From Mytilus galloprovincialis (Eukaryota; Mollusca; Bivalvia; Mytilida; Mytilidae): a stretch of DNA of 64,000 nucleotides. Location of the stretch: positions 50,720,833 through 50,784,832 of the forward strand of contig NC_134851.1 in the NCBI RefSeq assembly GCF_965363235.1. The letters run 5' to 3'. Positions 3,001 to 64,000 of this stretch are shown here, one piece after another; position 1 is the stretch's first letter; every line of letters begins with the position of its first letter. The position numbers were made by a program, and so were the translations under genes. A model generated the notes under the pieces. It searched no databases. It was given only the letters and a program-made list of their open reading frames with translations, and was not told where the DNA came from.

Positions 3001-6000
3001 CCCATGGGTGATGCCTAACACTTAACAAATACTAAGTAATCTACAGCCTGATTTCCATTACAATATTGGGTCCATTTGGTATCAGAATAATTTAAATTTA
3101 AATTTCAATCCTCATATCTATGATTAGTTTATTCAAACTTATCAAATGTATTTCTTGTGCTTATTTGGATCTATATTGTGTTGCTTATCCAGACTTTTTT
3201 CTATGCTAAAACCAAGTAACATTTTCAGATTTTTCATTCAAAATGCAGCTCAATTTCTCTTCTTGGCTAATACAAATTCATTGACTGGCTAGAACACCAG
3301 TATTGAAAACCAAATCTGAAGTATCCAACAACCAATCATTTGATTTCCATCGAAGTATAACAATGGTTGGTTTTCTAGTTAATATATTACATACTGTGAA
3401 AGTACAGTCGAACCTCGTTGTGTCGAAAACTCGGATGAGTCGAAGTAATTTCTTGGTCCCGGCATAATTCCTGTTTGATCAATGCATTTTAACCTCTGAT
3501 GAGTCGAACTTGGATGATTCAAATTCTCGGTTAAGTCGAGGTAATTCTTAAGTCCCGTCGATGTAAAACATGTATAAACATGCATCTAGTTTACAGAAAT
3601 CACATATTGGTATTTCATAAATTTCAAATATATGACGTCACACTCGACCTCGGATGAGTCGAATACTTTCGTCTGGTCCCTTCGACTTCGACACAACGAG
3701 GTTTGACTGTACTTTAATTCGTGGGTGTCAATTTTCGTGGTTTGAACAATATTTATATGTTTGTGGGTTTTTAAATTCTTGGATTTTAGTTTTCAAAAAA
3801 AAATAATTGAAAAATTAAAGCCTTTAGAAACGAAGGTTACAAATAGTCTGGATTGAAGGAAATTGCAAAGTAAACATGTAAATTGCAGTGATAACACTAA
3901 TTAACCCATGATAAAGTGATCAACAGATAAAGACCATCAAAGTTGTTAATTAGGCCATAAACATGTCGCCTAAAGAATACAGTAACATAAACAAATGCTT
4001 TAAACGTATCTTGAATTGTCAAATAATTCTTATCAAAATCAATTACTCATATGTACGAGAAGTATGAGGATGTAAAATCAACACTTCATCATACTAACAT
4101 ATCAATACCGGAAATCTGACTTTCATCGATCAAAAATATTTTTTATGAGAATTAAAAGATCAAAAGTTTTACAGTGTAGGTTATTAAAGATAAAATAGGT
4201 ATAATCCTGCATGCGGTTGTAGTTCTGTGACTGCTATTAAAGTATTCTCAGATTTGGTGTTATTCAATATATTCTCTAGATCATATCAGTAGTCAAACCT
4301 ACCGATAAGGGGATCTTTCAATGTCTTGATTTGAACAATGGTTGTTTTATTTTGTTCGACACTTAAATTCTTGGATAAAGTCATCCACGAAAACCATGAA
4401 AATTTGTACCCGACGAATAAAAGTACTTTCACAGTAAATAACTCAAAATAACATGAATATAACTAAATCCACTGCTATAAATTCAAAACCAAACAAGACT
4501 GGTCATGAGCAATCATTCTATAAATATAAACTGGACTTAATACTATCAAATCAGGATTGAGACTTGAAGAGGTAAGTATCATTCCTGTTTCTGTAATCCA
4601 TGGGGTATTTTACAATCATTTAAAACCCCTTGCACATTGTGCTGCACAAGTAACTGTAATTTCTAAAGGCTATCTGACTTTAATATCAGTCTCAGTATTT
4701 TCTTTTAACTTTAAAATCCCATAGTATTGTCAAGGCCCTTTTGGGTTTTAATGCACTCAAACATTTGATAGTTTTTGGTTTTCCAAATTTATGGTCCCCA
4801 GCATATCAAATGGTTATTCCAGAAAAATGGAAGGAAATCATTACTTTTAATTTTTACAATATTTGCCAAAAATGGAAATTTCTTTTCTCCACTCACCTGG
4901 ATTAAAACTGTGCAATGTGTTTACGTCTTTTAAATCCCAAATCTTGACTAGACCATTGTCATAACCAACACAAAGTCTTTTACCTAAAAACACATTTTTT
5001 TTTCTAAATTATATTCATACTGCAACTGTATCATTTGTAAATTTGAACTAAAATGATGAAACAAACATTTATAAAGTATAATCACTTATCGAATTAAGGG
5101 CAACAGTCCTTTTGCACCAATTACTGATTTTCAGGGGTATCATTTGCACCAAATTTTGTTTTTTAAATGTATCAATTGATTCAATATTCGGAACTCATTT
5201 GCGCCAATTTACCTGTACACATATCTATCATAAGTATTAATGATTAGTATATATTTATTCTTATTTTGGCTTTAAAAGTATCATATGTTCGGAGATATTT
5301 CACCATGAAGATGCACCATTTTTGGCGCAAACGGATTTCTCCCAAATTAAAGACTAAAACTATGTTTCTAAACATTGCAAAAGTAAAACAGTTATCTGTC
5401 ACATAAAAACATAAAAGTTTTAGTCTCTCTAAGGATATTCAACAAAGGACACTCTCCATCATTGAAGATGAGAATAGAATTGATGACAAAGGACACTCTC
5501 CATCATTGAAGATAAGAATAGAATTGATGACAAAGGACACTCTCCATCATTGAAGATAAGAATAGAATTCATCATTGAAGATAAGAATAGAATTGATGAC
5601 AAAGGACACTCTCCATCATTGAAGATGAGAATAGAATTGATGACAAAGGACACTCTCCATCATTGAAGATAAGAATAGAATTCATCATTGAAGATAAGAA
5701 TAGAATTGATGACAAAGGACACTCTCCATCATTGAAGATGAGAATAGAATTGATGACAAAGGACACTCTCCATCATTGAAGATAAGAATAGAATTCATGA
5801 CAAAGGACACTCTCCATCATTGAAGATTAGAATAGAATTCATGACAAAGGACACTCTCCATCATTGAAGATAAGAATAGAATTGATGACAAAGGACACTC
5901 TCCATCATTGAAGATGAGAATAGAATTGATGACAAAGGACACTCTCCATCATTGAAGATAAGAATAGAATTCATCATTGAAGATAAGAATAGAATTGATG

Positions 6001-9000
6001 ACAAAGGACACTCTCCATCATTGAAGATGAGAATAGAATTGATGACAAAGGACACTCTCCATCATTGAAGATAAGAATAGAATTCATCATTGAAGATAAG
6101 AATAGAATTGATGACAAAGGACACTCTCCATCATTGAAGATGAGAATAGAATTGATGACAAAGGACACTCTCCATCATTGAAGATAATAATAGAATTGAT
6201 GACAAAGGACACTCTCCATCATTGAAGATGAGAATAGAATTCATGACAAAAATCTCTGTTTTGTTGATCTTGTATTGCTGATCATTCAGTATGTTCAGGT
6301 TCTCTCTAGCTTCTTTACTTTTTTGCTCAAAACACACATAAGAGGGTTTAAAAAATCATCTTTAAAGGGAATCACTCCTACAACTATATTGAAAAAAAAA
6401 TGACTTAGTAGATCTTGCCTTGCTGATCAATTTGAAATTTAAAGTGTCTATTTATCTATTTCCATGACATAAGAAAAATCAAATTAGAAACTATTATGAA
6501 ATACACAATTTTCACAAAATAGGTAAAAATTATTACATTGGTGAATTAATATGATACAGTACATTTAGAGACTTACTACGACGATAGTCGGACTTCTTAC
6601 ATGTCCGTCATCTCATCTCGGACATTTCGGACATATGTCCGACAGTCATAAATCAATTATTTGTCAGGTACAGCTACCTACATGACCCCTTTCATCCTTA
6701 ACCGACACTAAAGACCAGCACGTGTTAATCGATCTGTTACGGTTGAACGCTTTTTATCTACCTGTGTAAACCAGGAAATGGTTTTTAAACATGATCATTA
6801 TTTTATTCTGATGTAATTGACGGAAAATGATATAGATGTATTGTACAATGTAGCTTTATTACAATATATTTTAGTTTTGTCGTGTGAGATAATTTGTTTT
6901 TCTTTTTTTTCTGTTGGTAACACTTTTAATTGTTTTCCATCTTGATTTTTTTTATATATAATTTGTACTTTTTAACTTCATGAACTAAATGTACTTAATG
7001 TCTTTTTACGTTTTATACCAATAATAAAGTCGATTTTGTTTTGCCTATTAATATTTTGGAAAGAACACAATAAATTATGTCCATGAAGTCTATTATTCAT
7101 GAATAAGCCACACTCTATTAACTATAACCGTGGGAAAATTACGGCAATAAATATATTAAGAATTCGACATATTTATGCCAATTAAAAACTTAAGACGATT
7201 TAAAAACATTACTTTCGTGGTCTATAAATCTTTTGCTGGTCCTTGAATTTTACGATTGCATACCATGCATATATTATAATAAAACCAAGGTGTTCAATTG
7301 ACACAAGTTGTCGATTCCCACACAATTAATTTTATGACCGGATGTAGAACAGAAACATCGTAGTATTGTAATCCTATAATAAATAGGTCAATTTATTTTC
7401 ATACAATGTGTACCGGTAATGTTTTGGAATTATGCTTCTGATCAAAATAATAGTTATATTGATAAGTTGTACATGTTTTGTATCGTTTTCTTTGTAGATT
7501 AAAAAGCAGAATTTAATTGGTCTTTTTGTATTTTTTTTCTTCTTCTCGGAATTACAAGGTTGTGTGAATAATTTTATTTTGGTTTTCGTTTCAATTGATT
7601 CAAAATGTAGAATGGTAAGAGTATGGATGAGAATATGATTTTTTCGGGCACCAAAATTCGTAATCAAAACCAACGGAAAAACCGTAATTGTCAACACCAA
7701 CATTAAAGAGATTAAAACTTGTCCTGAATATACAAAACTTGCCACTGGACGTCAAACAATCATCTATCATTTAACAAAGTCTATATTTTATCAACTAGAT
7801 TAATACGATGTATGGTTGTATCATAATTTATTTTACCTCAAAAATTCAAATATTTAATCAACAATATTAAAATATTAAGATAACACAATAAAAAATCATC
7901 AATTGTCATCAATACACAAATGTCATTTACTTCTTCTGTTGGATGGGACGACGTAGAAACTGGTTGATTTTCTCAATCACCATAGCGGTGTATGCTGAAT
8001 CTAAAGTCACACTTGGATAGAATGCAGTTACATATCGTCGTAGATATTGTTTTCTGGTGTCGTCTAGTGGTCTTTTATTCAACTTTCCACCGCCTCTATA
8101 GGAAAAATACACCCTAAGATTGTCTGCAGTAAAGAGTTCTTGAAACAAATACTTTAATAACGAAACGGCAAAAGCTCCAGGTGTGGTCGAGCTGCTTGCT
8201 GCTTGGTTTAGGTCATTTTCTGACAGACGAACTCCCTCTGGAATGTCCGCGAATAGGTGCATGGGTACGGATCTTACTGTTGTGGGTGCTGTTGGAGTTG
8301 TAAGAAATAAAGGCATGACTGGTGCAATAGAAGGAGTAACTGGTGTATCTGGTCTTTCATCTCTAGTAGGAGTATCAAAGTCTGGGAGCTGGCGTTGGTG
8401 GAAAGTTGGAGTTCTTGGCGTAGTTGGAGTAGGAGGTGCAGTCAAACGGAATGATTGCTGTCTTTGCATGGCCACCAGGTAGTCGATTTTCTGATTTTGC
8501 GAAAGAATAATACGTTCCATCTCTGTCTGCCTTGCGTTGTATATTTCCAACTGTTTATAAATAGCGGCCAGAGTTTTCTGTATAGTAAATGCAGTTGGTT
8601 CTGCTTCTGTTGGAGTAGGTGTTGGTACAATTGGTGAAGTTGGAGTAGGTGTTGGTACAATTGGTGAAGTTGGTGACGGCGCTTCTAGGTGCAACGGCAG
8701 TTGTGGAGAGATGGAGGGTGAACGATAGGCATATGGATCGTGAATGCCTTCTTCCATACTGAGTAAAACGGCCTCTTGTCTGGGTTTCTTTGATGTAGTG
8801 GTTTTAGGCATTTTTTTTCTTTTGCGTATAACATATGGTGACGCTACTGGTGATGCTACTGGTGATGCTACTGGTGATTGCGGCGATGAAGAAGTTGGAG
8901 AAGTTACTTCTGAGTTTTCTGTCTCTTTGGTTTTCATCTGGAGATATTCACCAGTATCTATAACTTCTGCAGATTCAGGGGAACTGGTACTGTTCCCGTA

Positions 9001-35862: not shown

Positions 35863-36759
35863 GAAACATGTGTTGTTAGATCTTAACCCTCCTCTATACC
35901 TCAAACCAGTGTATGGAATAAACATGTGTTGTTAGATGTTAACCCTCCCCTATACCTCAAACCAGTGTATGGAATAAACATGTGTTGTTAGATCTTAACC
36001 CTCCCTATACCTCAAACCAGTGTATGGAATAAACATGTGTTGTTAGATCTTAACCCTCCCCTATACCTCAAACCAGTGTATGGAATAAACATGTGTTGTT
36101 AGATCTTAACCCTCCCCTATACCTCAAACCAGTGTATGGAATAAACATGTGTTGTTAGATCTTAACCCTCCCCTATACCTCAAACCAGTGTATGGAATAA
36201 ACATGTGTTGTTAGATCTTAACCCTCCCTATACCTCAAACCAGTGTATGGAATAAACATGTGTTGTTAGATCTTAACCCTCCTCTATACCTCAAACCAGT
36301 GTATGGAATAAACATGTATTGTTAGATCTTAACCCTCCCCTATACCTCAAACCAGTGTATGGAATAAACATGTGTTGTTAGATCTTAACCCTCCTCTATA
36401 CCTCAAACCAGTGTATGGAATAAACATGTATTGTTAGATCTTAACCCTCCCCTATACCTCAAACCAGTGTATGGAATAAACATGTGTTGTTAGATCTTAA
36501 ACCTCCTCTATACCTCAAACCAGTGTATGGAATAAACATGTATTGTTAGATCTTAACCCTCCCCTATACCTCAAACCAGTGTATGGAATAAACGTGTTGT
36601 TAGATCTTAACCCTCCTCTATACCTCAAACCAGTGTATGGAATAAACATGTATTGTTAGATCTTAACCCTCCCCTATACCTCAAACCAGTGTATGGAATA
36701 AACATGTGTTGTTAGATCTTAACCCTCCTCTATACCTCAAACCAGTGTATGGAATAAAC
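35863..36759. repeat. 56-bp minisatellite, 16 units
   Basis: The unit is GTGTTGTTAGATCTTAACCC followed by TCCCCTATACCTCAAACCAG and TGTATGGAATAAACAT. ACCAGTGTATGGAATA occurs 16 times. Variants alternate (CCTCTATAC versus CCCCTATAC; ATGTGTTG versus ATGTATTG), and from about 36250 onward they alternate regularly, giving a two-unit (112-bp) period. It lies upstream of the FASTKD-family gene. Confidence 0.9.
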
Positions 36760-37264
36760 AAAACAACATCAATATGCACAGTAAATCTCAGTTTAAAGAA
36801 GTTGAAGTTGGATGTCAGAATATGTAACAGAAAAAAATAGGCAAAATGAGGAATCAGGATGATCGATACATAAAGTAACAAAGGACTACTAGCATTTACT
36901 AACATGACAGCTTAACTATATTGAGAAAATGAAAGCAATCTTTACCCTACACTGCTTACATGTACATTTTGTACTATGATAACTTAATGTTATGAACAGT
37001 TTTACATACATGACATATCAGATGTATTGGAAAATGCTGTAAACCAACTAATTTTCTAAGGCCATTTATTTTAACAACTTACATGATTAAAAAATATAAC
37101 TGGGATTCAAATCGACAGGAAAACGTAAAATTTGGATCTTACATACTAAAAAAATGAAAATTTTCAGCTTTTCCTTCTGTTTCATATATGAAAAACAAGA
37201 CCTAAGTTTGCTCCCTGACTCTGTAATGAATGGTATGCTATTTCTCTTTGCAGATGTGATCATC

Positions 37265-51629: not shown

Positions 51630-52892
51630 TTACTTATTTTTATAATTTTCTTCCATTTCTAAATGGTCTATAAGTCCTGATGTATCTTCTGTATGTATGG
51701 TAGCTTCTTCTGTCACCCGGATGTACTCATAGAAATATGCAATGACCATAAATATCATAATGTCTACTAACATGATCACTGCAAAGAAGAAAAATTCTAC
51801 AGCCTGCAAAATACAGTAAACTGATGTCAGTAAAGAAACTAATAATGACGAAAGGAACTAAACTGTAATTTTTCATATCTTAAGAGTTTTGTTATGCTTC
51901 ATTTTTCATATCCTAAAAGTTTAGTTATGCTTCATTTTTCATATCCTAAAAGTTTTGTTATGCTTCATTTTTCATATCCTAAAAGTTTTGTTATGCTTCA
52001 TTTTTCATATCCTAAAAGTTTTCTTAAGCTTCATTTTTCGTATCCTAAAAGATAATGCTTCAGTTTTCATATTTTAAAAGTTTCGTTATGCTTCATTTTC
52101 CATTGGCTTAAAGTTTCGTTATGCTTCATTTTTCATATCCTAAAAGTTTTCTTAAGCTTCATTTTTCGTATCCTAAAAGATAATGCTTCAGTTTTCATAT
52201 TTTAAAAGTTTAGTTATGCTTCATTTTTCATATCCTAAAAGTTTTGTTATGCTTCATTTTTCATATCCTAAAAGTTTAGTTATGCTTCATTTTTCATATC
52301 CTAAAAGTTTTCTTAAGCTTCATTTTTCGTATCCTAAAAGATAATGCTTCAGTTTTCATATTTTAAAAGTTTCGTTATGCTTCATTTTCCATTGGCTTAA
52401 AGTTTCGTTATGCTATGTTTTTCATATCCTAAAAGTTTTGTAATGCATCATTTTTCGTATCCTAAAATTTGTTATGCTTCATTTTCCGTATCCTTAAATT
52501 AAGTTTTGTAATGCTTCATTTTTCATATCCTTAAAGTTTTGTAATGCTTCATTTTTTAAATAACTTATAAACCCTGTGATATTTGTGTGGCAATCATAAT
52601 TTTATATCACCATAGAATCAAAATAAAAAAATGTAATCTTGATTTCATATAAAACAGAGGTAAAACATATCACTTTTCTAAGATGGACAACCCAAGCTAA
52701 AAATACATTTTCAGTTTTCTGTTTGATGTATAAATATTTTTGTCAAACAGTTTGTTATGTGCAATTTTAAGAGTATTATCTCACCTGACTAGAAAATAAT
52801 TGCATTTCAAATATTATTGCAACAATCAAATTACCAAAGGCTTGGTTCATTAGAAAGACTGCCTGGATAAAAGATTTCATGGACTTTGGTGC
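51630..52892 (-). CDS. Second copy of the last two exons of an SLC15/POT-like transporter (cassette A)
   Basis: Exons are 52785-52892 (APKSMKSFIQAVFLMNQAFG...) and 51630-51803 (AVEFFFFAVIMLVDIMIFMV ... stop). They have the same lengths (108 and 174 bp), phases and splice sites as cassette B at 60852-61488. They encode the last two membrane helices and cytosolic tail of a proton-coupled oligopeptide transporter. Differences from B are few (for example AVFLMNQ/AAFLMNT, FEMQLFSSQ/SEIRLFSNQ) and the tail TEEATIHTEDTSGLID is unchanged. No copy of the preceding exon was found between 52893 and 60851. It is therefore either an alternative 3' terminus of the same gene or a partial duplicate. Confidence 0.75.
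51868..52556. repeat. ~33-bp minisatellite (TTATGCTTCATTTTTCATATCCTAAAAGTTTTG)
   Basis: About 20 units of ~30-33 bp. Variants (CGTATCC, CATTGGCTTAAAG, short AGATAATGC) recur in blocks, giving a higher-order pattern (52060-52200 and 52310-52400 repeat the same variant order). It lies in the intron between the two exons of cassette A. The equivalent intron of cassette B has no array. Confidence 0.85.
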
Positions 52893-60851: not shown

Positions 60852-63378
60852 TTACTTATTTTTATAACTATCTTCCATTTCTAAATTATCTATAAGTCCT
60901 GATGTATCTTCTGTATGTATGGTAGCCTCTTCTGTTACCCTGACATACTCATAGAAATAAGCAATGACCATGAATATCAGAATGTCTATTAACATAATCA
61001 CTGCATAGAAGAAAAACTCCACAGCCTGCAAAATACAATAAACTAATGTCATAAACATAATACAATAAAAAAAATCTCATTAACAAATTACAATAAACAA
61101 ATATGAAAGGCACCACTGATTAGGAAAGGAAATATATTCTTTAAATCCTCAAAATTTTGTTTTGTGTATAAAAAATATTATTGGCCGACATCACCATAAA
61201 ATCAAAATTCAAAATCAGAACTTGATGTCATTAAAATGATTACAAAAATATCATTTTTCTAAAATGGTTAAATCAAGGATCATCATTGCCAAAACTATTT
61301 GTCCATTTTCAGTTACACAGTTTGTTATGTAAAATTGTACAAATATTATCTTCATACCACATCTTCCTTTTATATCTTACCTGATTAGAAAATAATCGGA
61401 TTTCAGATATTATTGCAACAATTAAATTGCCAAAGGCAGTGTTCATTAGAAAGGCTGCCTGAATAAAGGATTTCATGGACTTTGGTGCCTGTAAACAAAA
61501 GAAAAACTACATTAAAACAATTAACCAGTTTTAACAGAATATAAGAGTTTTTTTGATAATTTAAACAGAAACCATTTTTAGAAAAAAGTGGTTTCTGTGG
61601 GTACCCAGCATCAAAGGTAAAATAGATACATGTAAATATTTATTTTGGATGCTGTTGACTTACTGATTCAAATATATCTACTTCATATCAAATCATTTTT
61701 ATGTGATTCCGAATTCATAGATAAACATTAATATAATCATATTGCACCTGTCCTAAGTCAGAATACTGATGTTCATTGGTTGTTTTCTGTTTATGTGGTT
61801 CATAAGTGTTTCACGTTTCCTGTTTTTTATATAAATTAGACTGTTGGTTTTCCCCTTTGTATGGTTTTACACTAGTAATCTTTGGGGCCCTTTTTAGCTT
61901 GCTGTTCAGTGTGAGACTTGGCTCTGTGTTGAAGATCGTACCTTGACCTATAATGGTTAACTTTTATAAATTGTGACTTGGATCGAGAGTTGTCTATTTG
62001 GCTCTCATACCAAATCTTCCTATATTAAAATAATATTGATCTTATACATCGAAGGCAGACAAATTAATGATGTCATTAGTTATAAGTATTGCTGTATACA
62101 GTATCTTCTACTGAAGTTTAAGAAAAGTGGCATAAAATCTCAAATCAAGAAAAATAACAATGAATGTTTAGACATTAATAAAATTCTGACTCAGTTGGTA
62201 TATAATAATAATAATGTAATCTTAAAGTCTTTAAGTATCATCAAGCACCATGTGTCTCATCTTGTAGATTTATAAATGGCATATAAGACAAAGTTTAAAT
62301 ATCAACCAACCTAAATAATATGTAACAAAAAATCTATGCACATAACATATAGCTAAAATTCAAGACATCTTCAAGCAGGAAGTGACTGCACAACAGAAAA
62401 TAAACTTTGTTTAAAGATACAACTCATCATGATTAGTTCCTAACCAAATAACATATCATTCCTCAATACAGAAGTTGGAAAAAATGTAACAAAAATCATC
62501 TTACCTCCTATATATTTCTAGGACTATCATTGGTTAAAAGCGACCGTGTGGAGACCATGTATATTTAATATGGGCATGGTTTAATGTGAGACACAGTTAG
62601 TATTGGTATATATCTCTTTAAGAAAAAAACACGACGTTGAGGAAAAATCTGAAAACACGGACAACAGACAAAGAAATTGATGATGAATGATTGAAAAAAA
62701 TGCAGAAAACACATGAAAAGGTGATAAATCATTATTGTTGGCATTTGTTTTCATATTGACCAAGAGTTTGTTATATTGAAGACTTGTTCACCTTGATAGA
62801 ACACCAATCAAAAGGTTCCTAAATGACACATATTAAGATAGTCTGCAAGATATATTTGTTACACAAAGTGCTATTGGAATTTACTGACCCTATACATGTA
62901 TATAACATATAAGGTCAGTCACTTATATTATTCCACTGCTTATACATAATGGTAGTTCAATCAATATTTGATTGGTTGAGACTATCCCAAGTCATTGAAC
63001 AAATCTTTATATTCCCCTCTGAAATGTCAGGACTAAATCAAGGGAGGTAATCTGCAGTTATTGTAAATAAGTAAACAAGTAAACAATGCATAGGCAGTGG
63101 AATAACACATTCATTTCCCTTGGCCTTGGTAGATATGAAGATTTAATCACCCTTATTTTTGGGTGAACAAATCTTCATATCTTCCTCTGGCAAGGGAAAT
63201 AACTGTATCATATTGAATGCCAAATGGTTTATAAAATAATAATCACCTGTGAATATCCAAACGAGAGACCAGTAATTGAGAAAAGAATTTCCCCCACAGT
63301 TATAACTATATACTGTGGTACCATGACCAACATAGACAAGGAGTTCTGTTCTACACTGGTGAATAACATTAGGTTTGT
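60852..63378 (-). CDS. SLC15/POT-type oligopeptide transporter-like gene, 3' exons (cassette B plus preceding exon)
   Basis: Three exons join in phase 0: 63247-63378 (TNLMLFTSVEQNSLSMLVMV, PQYIVITVGEILFSITGLSF, GYSQ), 61381-61488 (APKSMKSFIQAAFLMNTAFG...) and 60852-61025 (AVEFFFYAVIMLIDILIFMV ... stop). The PQY..(I/L)T.GE..FS.TGL.F.YSQAP..MKS run is the late-membrane-helix signature of animal PEPT1/PEPT2. Then come an 'AFGN' helix, a last helix and a 35-residue acidic tail. The products are plasma-membrane proton-coupled di/tripeptide carriers. Upstream exons are beyond the window. The first exon here is also unit 1 of a 95-bp tandem array, and the last two exons have a second copy at 51630-52892. 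Confidence 0.82.
61745..62025 (+). repeat. CTCATTGGCAATCATACCAC-family dispersed repeat inside cassette B upstream flank
   Basis: The order is GTCCTAAGTCAGAATACTGA, GTTTTACACTAGTAATCTTT, GGGGCCCTTTTTAGCTTGCT, GATCGTACCTTGACCTATAA, GAGAGTTGTCTATTTGGCTC. The homologous flank of cassette A (around 53120) lacks an insertion at this exact spot, so it arrived after duplication. Confidence 0.6.
62930..63103. repeat. Foldback: inverted ATTCCACTGC termini
   Basis: ATTCCACTGC at 62930 and GCAGTGGAAT ending 63103 form the ends of a ~174-bp foldback. It is followed by a strong hairpin at 63132-63181 (GATATGAAGATT...AATCTTCATATC, loop including CACCC/GGGTG). Both are in the SLC15-like intron. Confidence 0.5.
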
Positions 63379-64000
63379 CTGAAATAAACAACAGTTATAA
63401 CTATACACTGTGGTACCATGACAAACATAGACAAGGAGTTCTGTTCTACACTGGTGAATAACATTAGGTTTGTCTGAAATAAACAACAGTTATAACTATA
63501 TACTGTGGTACCATGACAAACATGGACAAGGAGTTCTGTTCTACACTGGTGAATAACATCAGGTTTGTCTGAAATAAACAACAGTTATAACTATATACTG
63601 TGGTACCATCACAAACATGGACAAGGAGTTCTGTTCTACACTTGTGAATAACATAAAGTTTGTCTGAAATAAAGACAACAGTTATAACTATATACTGTGG
63701 TACCATCACAAACATAGACAAGGAGTTCTGTTCCACACTGGTGAATAACATTAGGTTTGTCTGAAATAAACAACAGTTATAACTATATACTGTGGTACCA
63801 TCACAAACATGGATAAGGTTCTACACTGGTGAATAACATTAGGTTTGTCTGAAATAAACAACAGTTATAACTATATACTGTGGTACCATGACAAACATGG
63901 ACAAGGAGTTCTGTTCTACACTGGTGAATAACATCAGGTTTGTCTGAAATAAAGAACAGTTATAACTATATACTGTGGTACCATGACAAACATAGACAAG
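63301..64000 (-). repeat. 95-bp tandem array derived from an SLC15 coding exon and its splice acceptor
   Basis: Units start (plus-strand TATAACTATA) at 63301, 63396, 63491, 63586, 63683, 63778, 63866 and 63961, so spacing is 95 bp with one 97 and one 88. On the minus strand each unit reads TGTTTATTTCAG (a full 3' splice site), then exon sequence from TNLMLF through VMVPQYIVIT, then the next TGTTTATTTCAG. Only unit 1 continues into the rest of the exon (VGEILFS...) and its donor. Because 95 is not a multiple of 3, extending the exon by one unit from the next acceptor brings a TAA into frame. The array continues past the window. Confidence 0.9.

Follow-up and report, generated by a model that had tools for sequence, protein, structure and literature searches.

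Seventeen tandem splice acceptors at a coding exon of a peptide-transporter gene in the mussel Mytilus galloprovincialis

Introduction

Minisatellite-like tandem duplications of an intron/exon boundary have been described in amphioxus as "mirages", in the genes BflGb6, BflGb9, Adh3, TnC and PGBD5 (PMC3087553, PMC3902484). According to the passages of these reports on splicing, RT-PCR suggested that splicing was regular (PMC3087553), and aberrant mRNAs were reportedly not generated (PMC3902484). For lancelet PGBD5, an extra exon predicted within the repeats was omitted by the authors (PMC3902484). In human segmental duplications, internal tandem repeats are described as minisatellites that may alter gene structure at exon-intron boundaries (PMC2812944). 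Earthworm metallothionein was considered as a further parallel but set aside, because the repeats in the relevant part of that report are intronic (PMC12783039). Among the matches listed for queries on Mytilus, molluscs and bivalves, in which subscription journals are thinly covered, there was no report of splice-site arrays in a mollusc.

Here we describe an array of this kind in a 64,000-nucleotide stretch of Mytilus galloprovincialis DNA (the window, C14:50720833-50784832), which is low in GC. An earlier sequence-only reading of the window had proposed that the acceptor and part of a peptide-transporter exon had become a minisatellite. Coordinates above 64000 are window coordinates continued (ext.) into the adjoining loci L005-L008.

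Results and discussion

The transporter gene and its array exon

A peptide-transporter gene of the SLC15 type lies on the minus strand. We located 12 of its exons, a count that covers neither the 5' end nor every internal exon; AG precedes each of them, and GT follows every one that has a donor. The exons at its 3' end are as follows.

63247..63378, minus strand: true array exon, 132 nt, phase 0, encoding TNLMLFTSVEQNSLSMLVMVPQYIVITVGEILFSITGLSFGYSQ
63246-63241, minus strand: its donor GTGATT; acceptor 17 is directly upstream of the exon
61381..61488, minus strand: next downstream exon, APKSMKSFIQAAFLMNTAFGNLIVAIISEIRLFSNQ, 108 nt
60852..61025, minus strand: terminal coding exon, 174 nt including the stop codon
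52785..52892, minus strand: second copy of the penultimate exon, a local partial duplication
51630..51803, minus strand: second copy of the terminal exon, from the partial tandem duplication of the last two SLC15 exons

The nearest located upstream exon ends at ext. 68208 with ...SLDLIK|GTGGGT in phase 0, with which the array-exon frame TNLML agrees. When the array exon was joined to the next two exons, the product matched SLC15A1 (E=1.6e-27) and the Pfam profile PTR2 (E=2.1e-12, 47.1 bits against a cut-off of 27). The peptide-transporter identity that had been proposed from the letters was therefore borne out by the PTR2 profile for the three joined exons, but not for the open frame of the array exon alone, which reached 21.9 bits (E=9.6e-5), under the curated cut-off. 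A rough join with further exon pieces from 68 kb to 85 kb matched SLC15A1 in several stretches (E=2.2e-81). Judged from these matches, the array exon is a real coding exon of an SLC15/PTR2 (POT) peptide transporter. Just downstream of it, at window positions 63107-63200, there is an imperfect fold-back (a long inverted repeat), which may be a small MITE-like element.

Both exons of the partial duplicate are open and may form an alternative 3' end of the gene. A 33-bp minisatellite occupies window positions 51868-52556, within the intron that separates them. In the genome search, neither the array exon nor, beyond the partial duplicate, the pair of last SLC15 exons had another close copy. An array-free paralogue that could serve as an outgroup was thus not obtained; besides the partial copy, the search gave weak matches on C9, C6 and C2 (E 0.19-5.65).

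It might be supposed that the transporter has decayed, or that its transcripts omit the 132-nt exon. The length of the exon is a multiple of three, so that skipping would preserve the frame, and the reading frame is known in pieces (the 12 exons) and not as a whole. However, the array exon and the following two exons are open, the further exon pieces match SLC15A1 as described above, and comparison of the last two exons with their duplicates gives dN 0.068 versus dS 0.321. The array exon moreover holds a stretch that is conserved with SLC15A1 in the alignment (PQY..GE..FS.TGL.F.YSQ). We consider a dead gene or a skipped exon very improbable.

Structure of array 1

The part of array 1 in the window (63296-64000) was detected by Tandem Repeats Finder with a period of 95, 7.5 copies and 93% matches. 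The array extends 909 bp past the window end, and as a whole (ext. 63296-64909, about 1.6 kb) it consists of 17.0 copies of 95 bp with a score of 2879, by which chance is ruled out. It contains 17 splice acceptors, namely 16 decoys and the true one.

63378 (true), 63473, 63568, 63663, 63760, 63848, 63943, minus strand: array 1 acceptors in the window (first exon base)
64038-64894, minus strand: ten array 1 acceptors beyond the window

Read in the 5' to 3' direction of the gene, the acceptors are 64894, 64798, 64703, ..., 63473, 63378. Their spacing is 95 bp in 13/16 cases and 96, 88 and 97 bp in the rest, in agreement with the unit length that the sequence-only reading had given. That reading had counted at least eight tandem units, which is correct if the partial eighth is included; the acceptor junctions in the window number seven, and the full array has 17 units. 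It had also put about 78 bp of the exon into each unit, a figure to be replaced by 83 bp of the exon head plus a 12-bp intron tail ending TTTATTTCAG. That is, the unit spans the intron/exon boundary together with the splice signal, as a mirage does. Likewise as in a mirage, the authentic copy, acceptor 17, is still joined to the full 132-nt exon. Its donor is GTGATT, and the view that the gene-proximal unit alone leads to an intact exon and donor has held. The multiplication of 3' splice sites is evident as well: AG is intact in 16/16 decoys. The native intron (...TTTTATTTTCATGTTCTTTATTTCAG) precedes the first acceptor.

At the array junction, three bases (TGT) are common to the exon and the native intron. 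This microhomology makes the previously suggested origin by replication slippage plausible, and from it we infer slippage or microhomology-mediated duplication. A DNA search of the 1.385-Gb, 331-contig assembly, in which the best candidates were scored, found array 1 in a single place. Tandem arrays often cause assembly errors, but the units of array 1 differ from one another in their variants and in length (88, 95, 96 and 97 bp), the edges of the array are clean, and its size is small. We therefore give almost no credence to an assembly artefact.

We think it probable that array 1 is a boundary-duplication minisatellite of which the last acceptor is the coding one and the decoys are ignored, and that it is one of many such passengers which the genome tolerates. 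Such an array would start with a tandem duplication across the intron/exon boundary, comprising the exon head and the intron tail, and slippage or unequal exchange would then expand it to 17 units. The copy still continuous with the remainder of the exon would stay coding, and the other 16 units would now be intron.

Consequences of decoy use and choice of the acceptor

The length of the exon depends on the acceptor that is joined to the donor: it is 132 nt from the true site and 1648 down to 227 nt from the decoys. As had been predicted from the shift of frame by extra units, all 16 decoys lead to a premature stop. In 13/16 the stop comes after 34 codons; the other three reach it after 66, 15 and 98 codons. 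It lies 125-1450 nt upstream of the exon donor, and 12/16 decoys encode the identical start TNLMLFTSVEQNSLSMFVMVPQYIVIT. Since two further coding exons lie downstream of these stops, nonsense-mediated decay (NMD) would be expected by the general rule. Any leak to the decoys would thus give a prematurely terminated transcript that is probably degraded.

This geometry, which is the usual one for NMD, might be put to use as a splicing rheostat: some transcripts would use the decoys, meet a stop in 15-98 codons and be degraded, and the repeat number would tune the output and vary between individuals. The intact AG of all decoys accords with this idea, as does the GTAAG kept by 28/28 donors of array 2, which is described below. 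However, units whose length is not divisible by three are likely to produce stops even when they serve no function, and the amphioxus mirages are reported, in the passages on splicing, without aberrant mRNAs. We regard the rheostat as unlikely.

Next, the strength of the acceptors was compared by a weight matrix trained on 13 acceptors of the transporter gene and its duplicated exons. The true acceptor scored 3.3, the first 3.5, and the remaining fifteen -1.4 to 4.0; the matrix separates sites poorly, because the leave-one-out scores of the training sites range from -8.0 to 15.0. At -25 to -5, the pyrimidine count was 17/21 in the first acceptor, compared with 13/21 in the true one and 13-14/21 in the remainder. 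Strength as an explanation for use of the last acceptor was thus rejected, since the scores from the matrix of 13 acceptors do not favor the true site. In addition, the acceptor located on the native intron is the first and not the last; what precedes the 12-bp intron tail of the true site is former exon. Because the true acceptor does not rank above the decoys and the native intron belongs to the first, the choice must rest on something else, and because the array 1 sites score alike, it must come from exon length, position or the order of transcription. The selector of the last acceptor is most likely exon definition, by which the spliceosome would pair the last acceptor with the donor over a 132-nt exon and ignore the decoys with their much longer exons. 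What speaks against our preferred explanation is that tract and order favor a decoy: the pyrimidine tract is best at the first acceptor, which is also the earliest to be transcribed.

The former exon upstream of the true acceptor would now have to supply the branch point, for which the motif TTATAAC is a candidate. This bears on the idea that the array is an intermediate of intron gain, in which exonic units with splice sites would be recruited as new exons and the repeats between them would become a new intron. Such a course has been modelled for amphioxus globins (PMC3087553), and human tandem repeats have been discussed in a similar sense (PMC2812944), as far as the relevant passages go. 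On the other hand, no new intron was seen in array 1, and no strong donor was seen by eye within the 95-bp unit. An intron-gain intermediate seems highly unlikely.

Other arrays at splice sites

Repeats at splice sites were also found elsewhere in the transporter gene and in the gene next to it.

L006:9125-L007:1321 (ext. 82293-84489), minus strand: array 2, donor side, transporter gene, 77-bp units, 28 donors
L006:3912-4192 (ext. 77080-77360), minus strand: decayed triplication, transporter exon ...YKKIPPTGNLIGRVFKCIF, after which its 3' end recurs twice in decayed form
L008:4448-4861, plus strand: array 3, donor side, EF-hand exon of the neighbouring gene, 82 bp x 5

The source exon of array 2 (84562-84421, minus strand) ends ...GGGTAGATACAG|GTAAGT and is followed by the 77-bp units. 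Its donors all read GTAAG[T/C]TA; the last of the 28 is at 82358, after which a shortened last copy has no donor. Nine of the 27 later donors were translated through, and an immediate stop was met in 9/9. The exon of array 3 matched the EF-hand (E=8.4e-8), and its five donors are spaced by 81-83 bp. In the decayed triplication, whose exon starts at 77360, the first copy retains the GTAAGT donor and the second does not.

In 103 kb, 12 arrays picked out manually in the Tandem Repeats Finder tables made up 8.2% of the sequence; three of them edge in a recognised coding exon, and the other nine were judged by eye. Minisatellites at window positions 5442-6250 (44-bp units) and 35864-36760 (56-bp units) had no exon that was recognised by eye at their edges.

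To estimate how frequent such arrays are, 20 stretches of 10 kb were sampled, all within 0.5-13.8 Mb of C14, the contig of the window itself. When a period of 25 or more, two or more copies and a length of 100 bp or more were required, there were 29 arrays, covering 15.5% of bases. Tandem satellite filled one 10-kb stretch entirely (L012:6-9999) and most of another (L026:3-7203), with smallest periods of 38 and 72. Array edges were crossed by 75 open-frame rows, of which 73 were run against Pfam (one duplicate and one long repeat frame were left out). Two of the 73 frames gave E<=0.01: one matched Chitin_synth_2 (1.4e-8), the other NTP_transferase (0.0021), the latter short of the profile cut-off. 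The same method recovers two of the three previously known arrays at this threshold, and is thus not fully sensitive.

L010:6262-6905: array at a chitin synthase-like exon, acceptor side, 7 acceptors at 92 bp
L011:4489-4753: array at a nucleotidyl transferase-like exon, acceptor side, 4 acceptors at 71 bp

Accordingly, 2/29 sampled arrays are acceptor-side arrays in other genes. Both have an intact exon at the edge, and stops follow from 6/6 decoys of the 92-bp array and 3/3 of the 71-bp array. One full exon is likewise kept at the edge of array 2, array 3 and the decayed triplication. The rate of 2 per 200 kb (95% Poisson range 0.24-7.2) would mean about 1,700-50,000 splice-site arrays genome-wide, provided that the sampled C14 stretch is typical. 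Splice-site arrays are apparently common in this genome. Since arrays fill 8-15% of the sequence, their overlap with splice sites need not exceed random placement. The view of array 1 as a singular event does not agree with a second array and a decayed triplication in the same gene, one array next door, the two among the sampled arrays and the amphioxus precedent.

Two apparent regularities were dropped. Unit lengths of 95, 77, 82, 92 and 71 are never multiples of three, which has a probability of about 0.13 by chance. The small intron share of the unit, taken as a sign of non-random origin, lost weight when the 92-bp and 71-bp arrays came in (shares judged by eye).

Variation among the repeat units

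The variation among units was analyzed by tests of synonymous excess and of invariant runs, both post hoc, that is, conceived after the data had been seen. In array 1, 10/12 distinct base changes among the 16 decoys were synonymous (null mean 3.75, P=0.0001; indels not counted), and when changes in the same codon were read together the count was 9/12 or 8/12 (P=0.002, 0.012). No such excess was seen in the other two, with 11/41 for array 2 (null mean 11.2) and 4/17 for array 3 (null mean 3.8). The contrast of array 1 with arrays 2 and 3 gave P=0.002 (9/3) or 0.014 (8/4).

In a mirage one would look for inner units that evolve in concert and for a boundary unit that stands apart. The true unit of array 1 has one base (F>L) that is absent from all 16 decoys, the total difference being 1-6 positions. 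Units 1-10 apart had on average 2.2-3.3 mismatches, and those 11-16 apart 3.3-5.0, a weak trend from few pairs. Distance-dependent similarity of the units amounted to just a weak rise in mismatches past ten units.

In array 2, 38/77 positions vary across 27 units, with the shortened donorless last copy left out. The longest invariant run is the donor ACAG|GTAAG (8 core positions P=0.003; such a run anywhere P=0.055). The donor is also the longest invariant run in array 3 (positions P=0.09, run length P=0.87; only four units). No invariance effect was seen at the acceptor in array 1 (P=0.63), where the exon part contains the longest run (P=0.95). Three non-exonic control arrays gave run-length P values of 0.16, 0.82 and 0.24.

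The synonymous excess of array 1 and the invariant donors of array 2 are unexpected for a pure passenger. The excess is what one would look for if decoy splicing gave a defined truncated transporter, with the start shared among decoys as an alternative C-terminus kept by selection. Constraint would then be expected solely on the decoy in use and not on all decoys, and recent copying from a selected exon explains the excess equally. Further, the product would be without the end of the protein, and its mRNA is a candidate for NMD. We hold such a C-terminus to be scarcely likely; the simplest account of the excess is recent copying from the exon itself, which is under selection. A wider proposal is that splice-site minisatellites are pervasive, in the thousands, that their decoys are under selection (the donor motif is kept in 28/28 and 5/5), and that repeat number is a fast-mutating splicing dial varying between individuals. 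This we judge quite doubtful. Our preferred reading of array 1 remains a neutral passenger whose last acceptor would be the one in use.

Significance and comparison with known systems

The 17 near-identical acceptors and 28 near-identical donors in one gene amount to a natural experiment on how the spliceosome chooses among equals. Such arrays, if the small sample is a fair guide to their frequency, could lead gene annotation astray, and could supply new introns and variation between individuals.

Multiplication of splice sites by a minisatellite is also found in IFI6 (6-16/G1P3); the unit there is short, the donor is the site multiplied and the repeats are reported in transcripts, unlike array 1. 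The variable human repeats average 30 bp x 4, occur in recent paralogs and are in some cases retained within exons, as the passages on them describe (PMC2812944).

The amphioxus mirages, as far as the passages on these genes describe them, share with the mussel arrays that the authentic exon is kept, that several genes are hit and that both acceptor and donor sides are involved, although amphioxus belongs to another phylum. The arrangement of BflGb6 is identical to that of array 1, and the mussel unit lengths (71-95 bp) fall inside the 10-160 bp given for amphioxus. The two differ in the number of units: BflGb6 has 3-6 and PGBD5 up to 7 and 6, compared with 17 acceptors and 28 donors in the mussel. 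AG or GT is described for many but not all amphioxus repeats, whereas it is present in all mussel units counted, the one exception being the truncated copy at the end of array 2. The amphioxus mirages were examined for splicing and length polymorphism, while the mussel arrays are known from the DNA of one assembly. Array 1 thus matches the amphioxus mirages and is of a kind already described; what is unusual is the number of its splice sites and the fact that one gene carries two arrays together with a decayed triplication.
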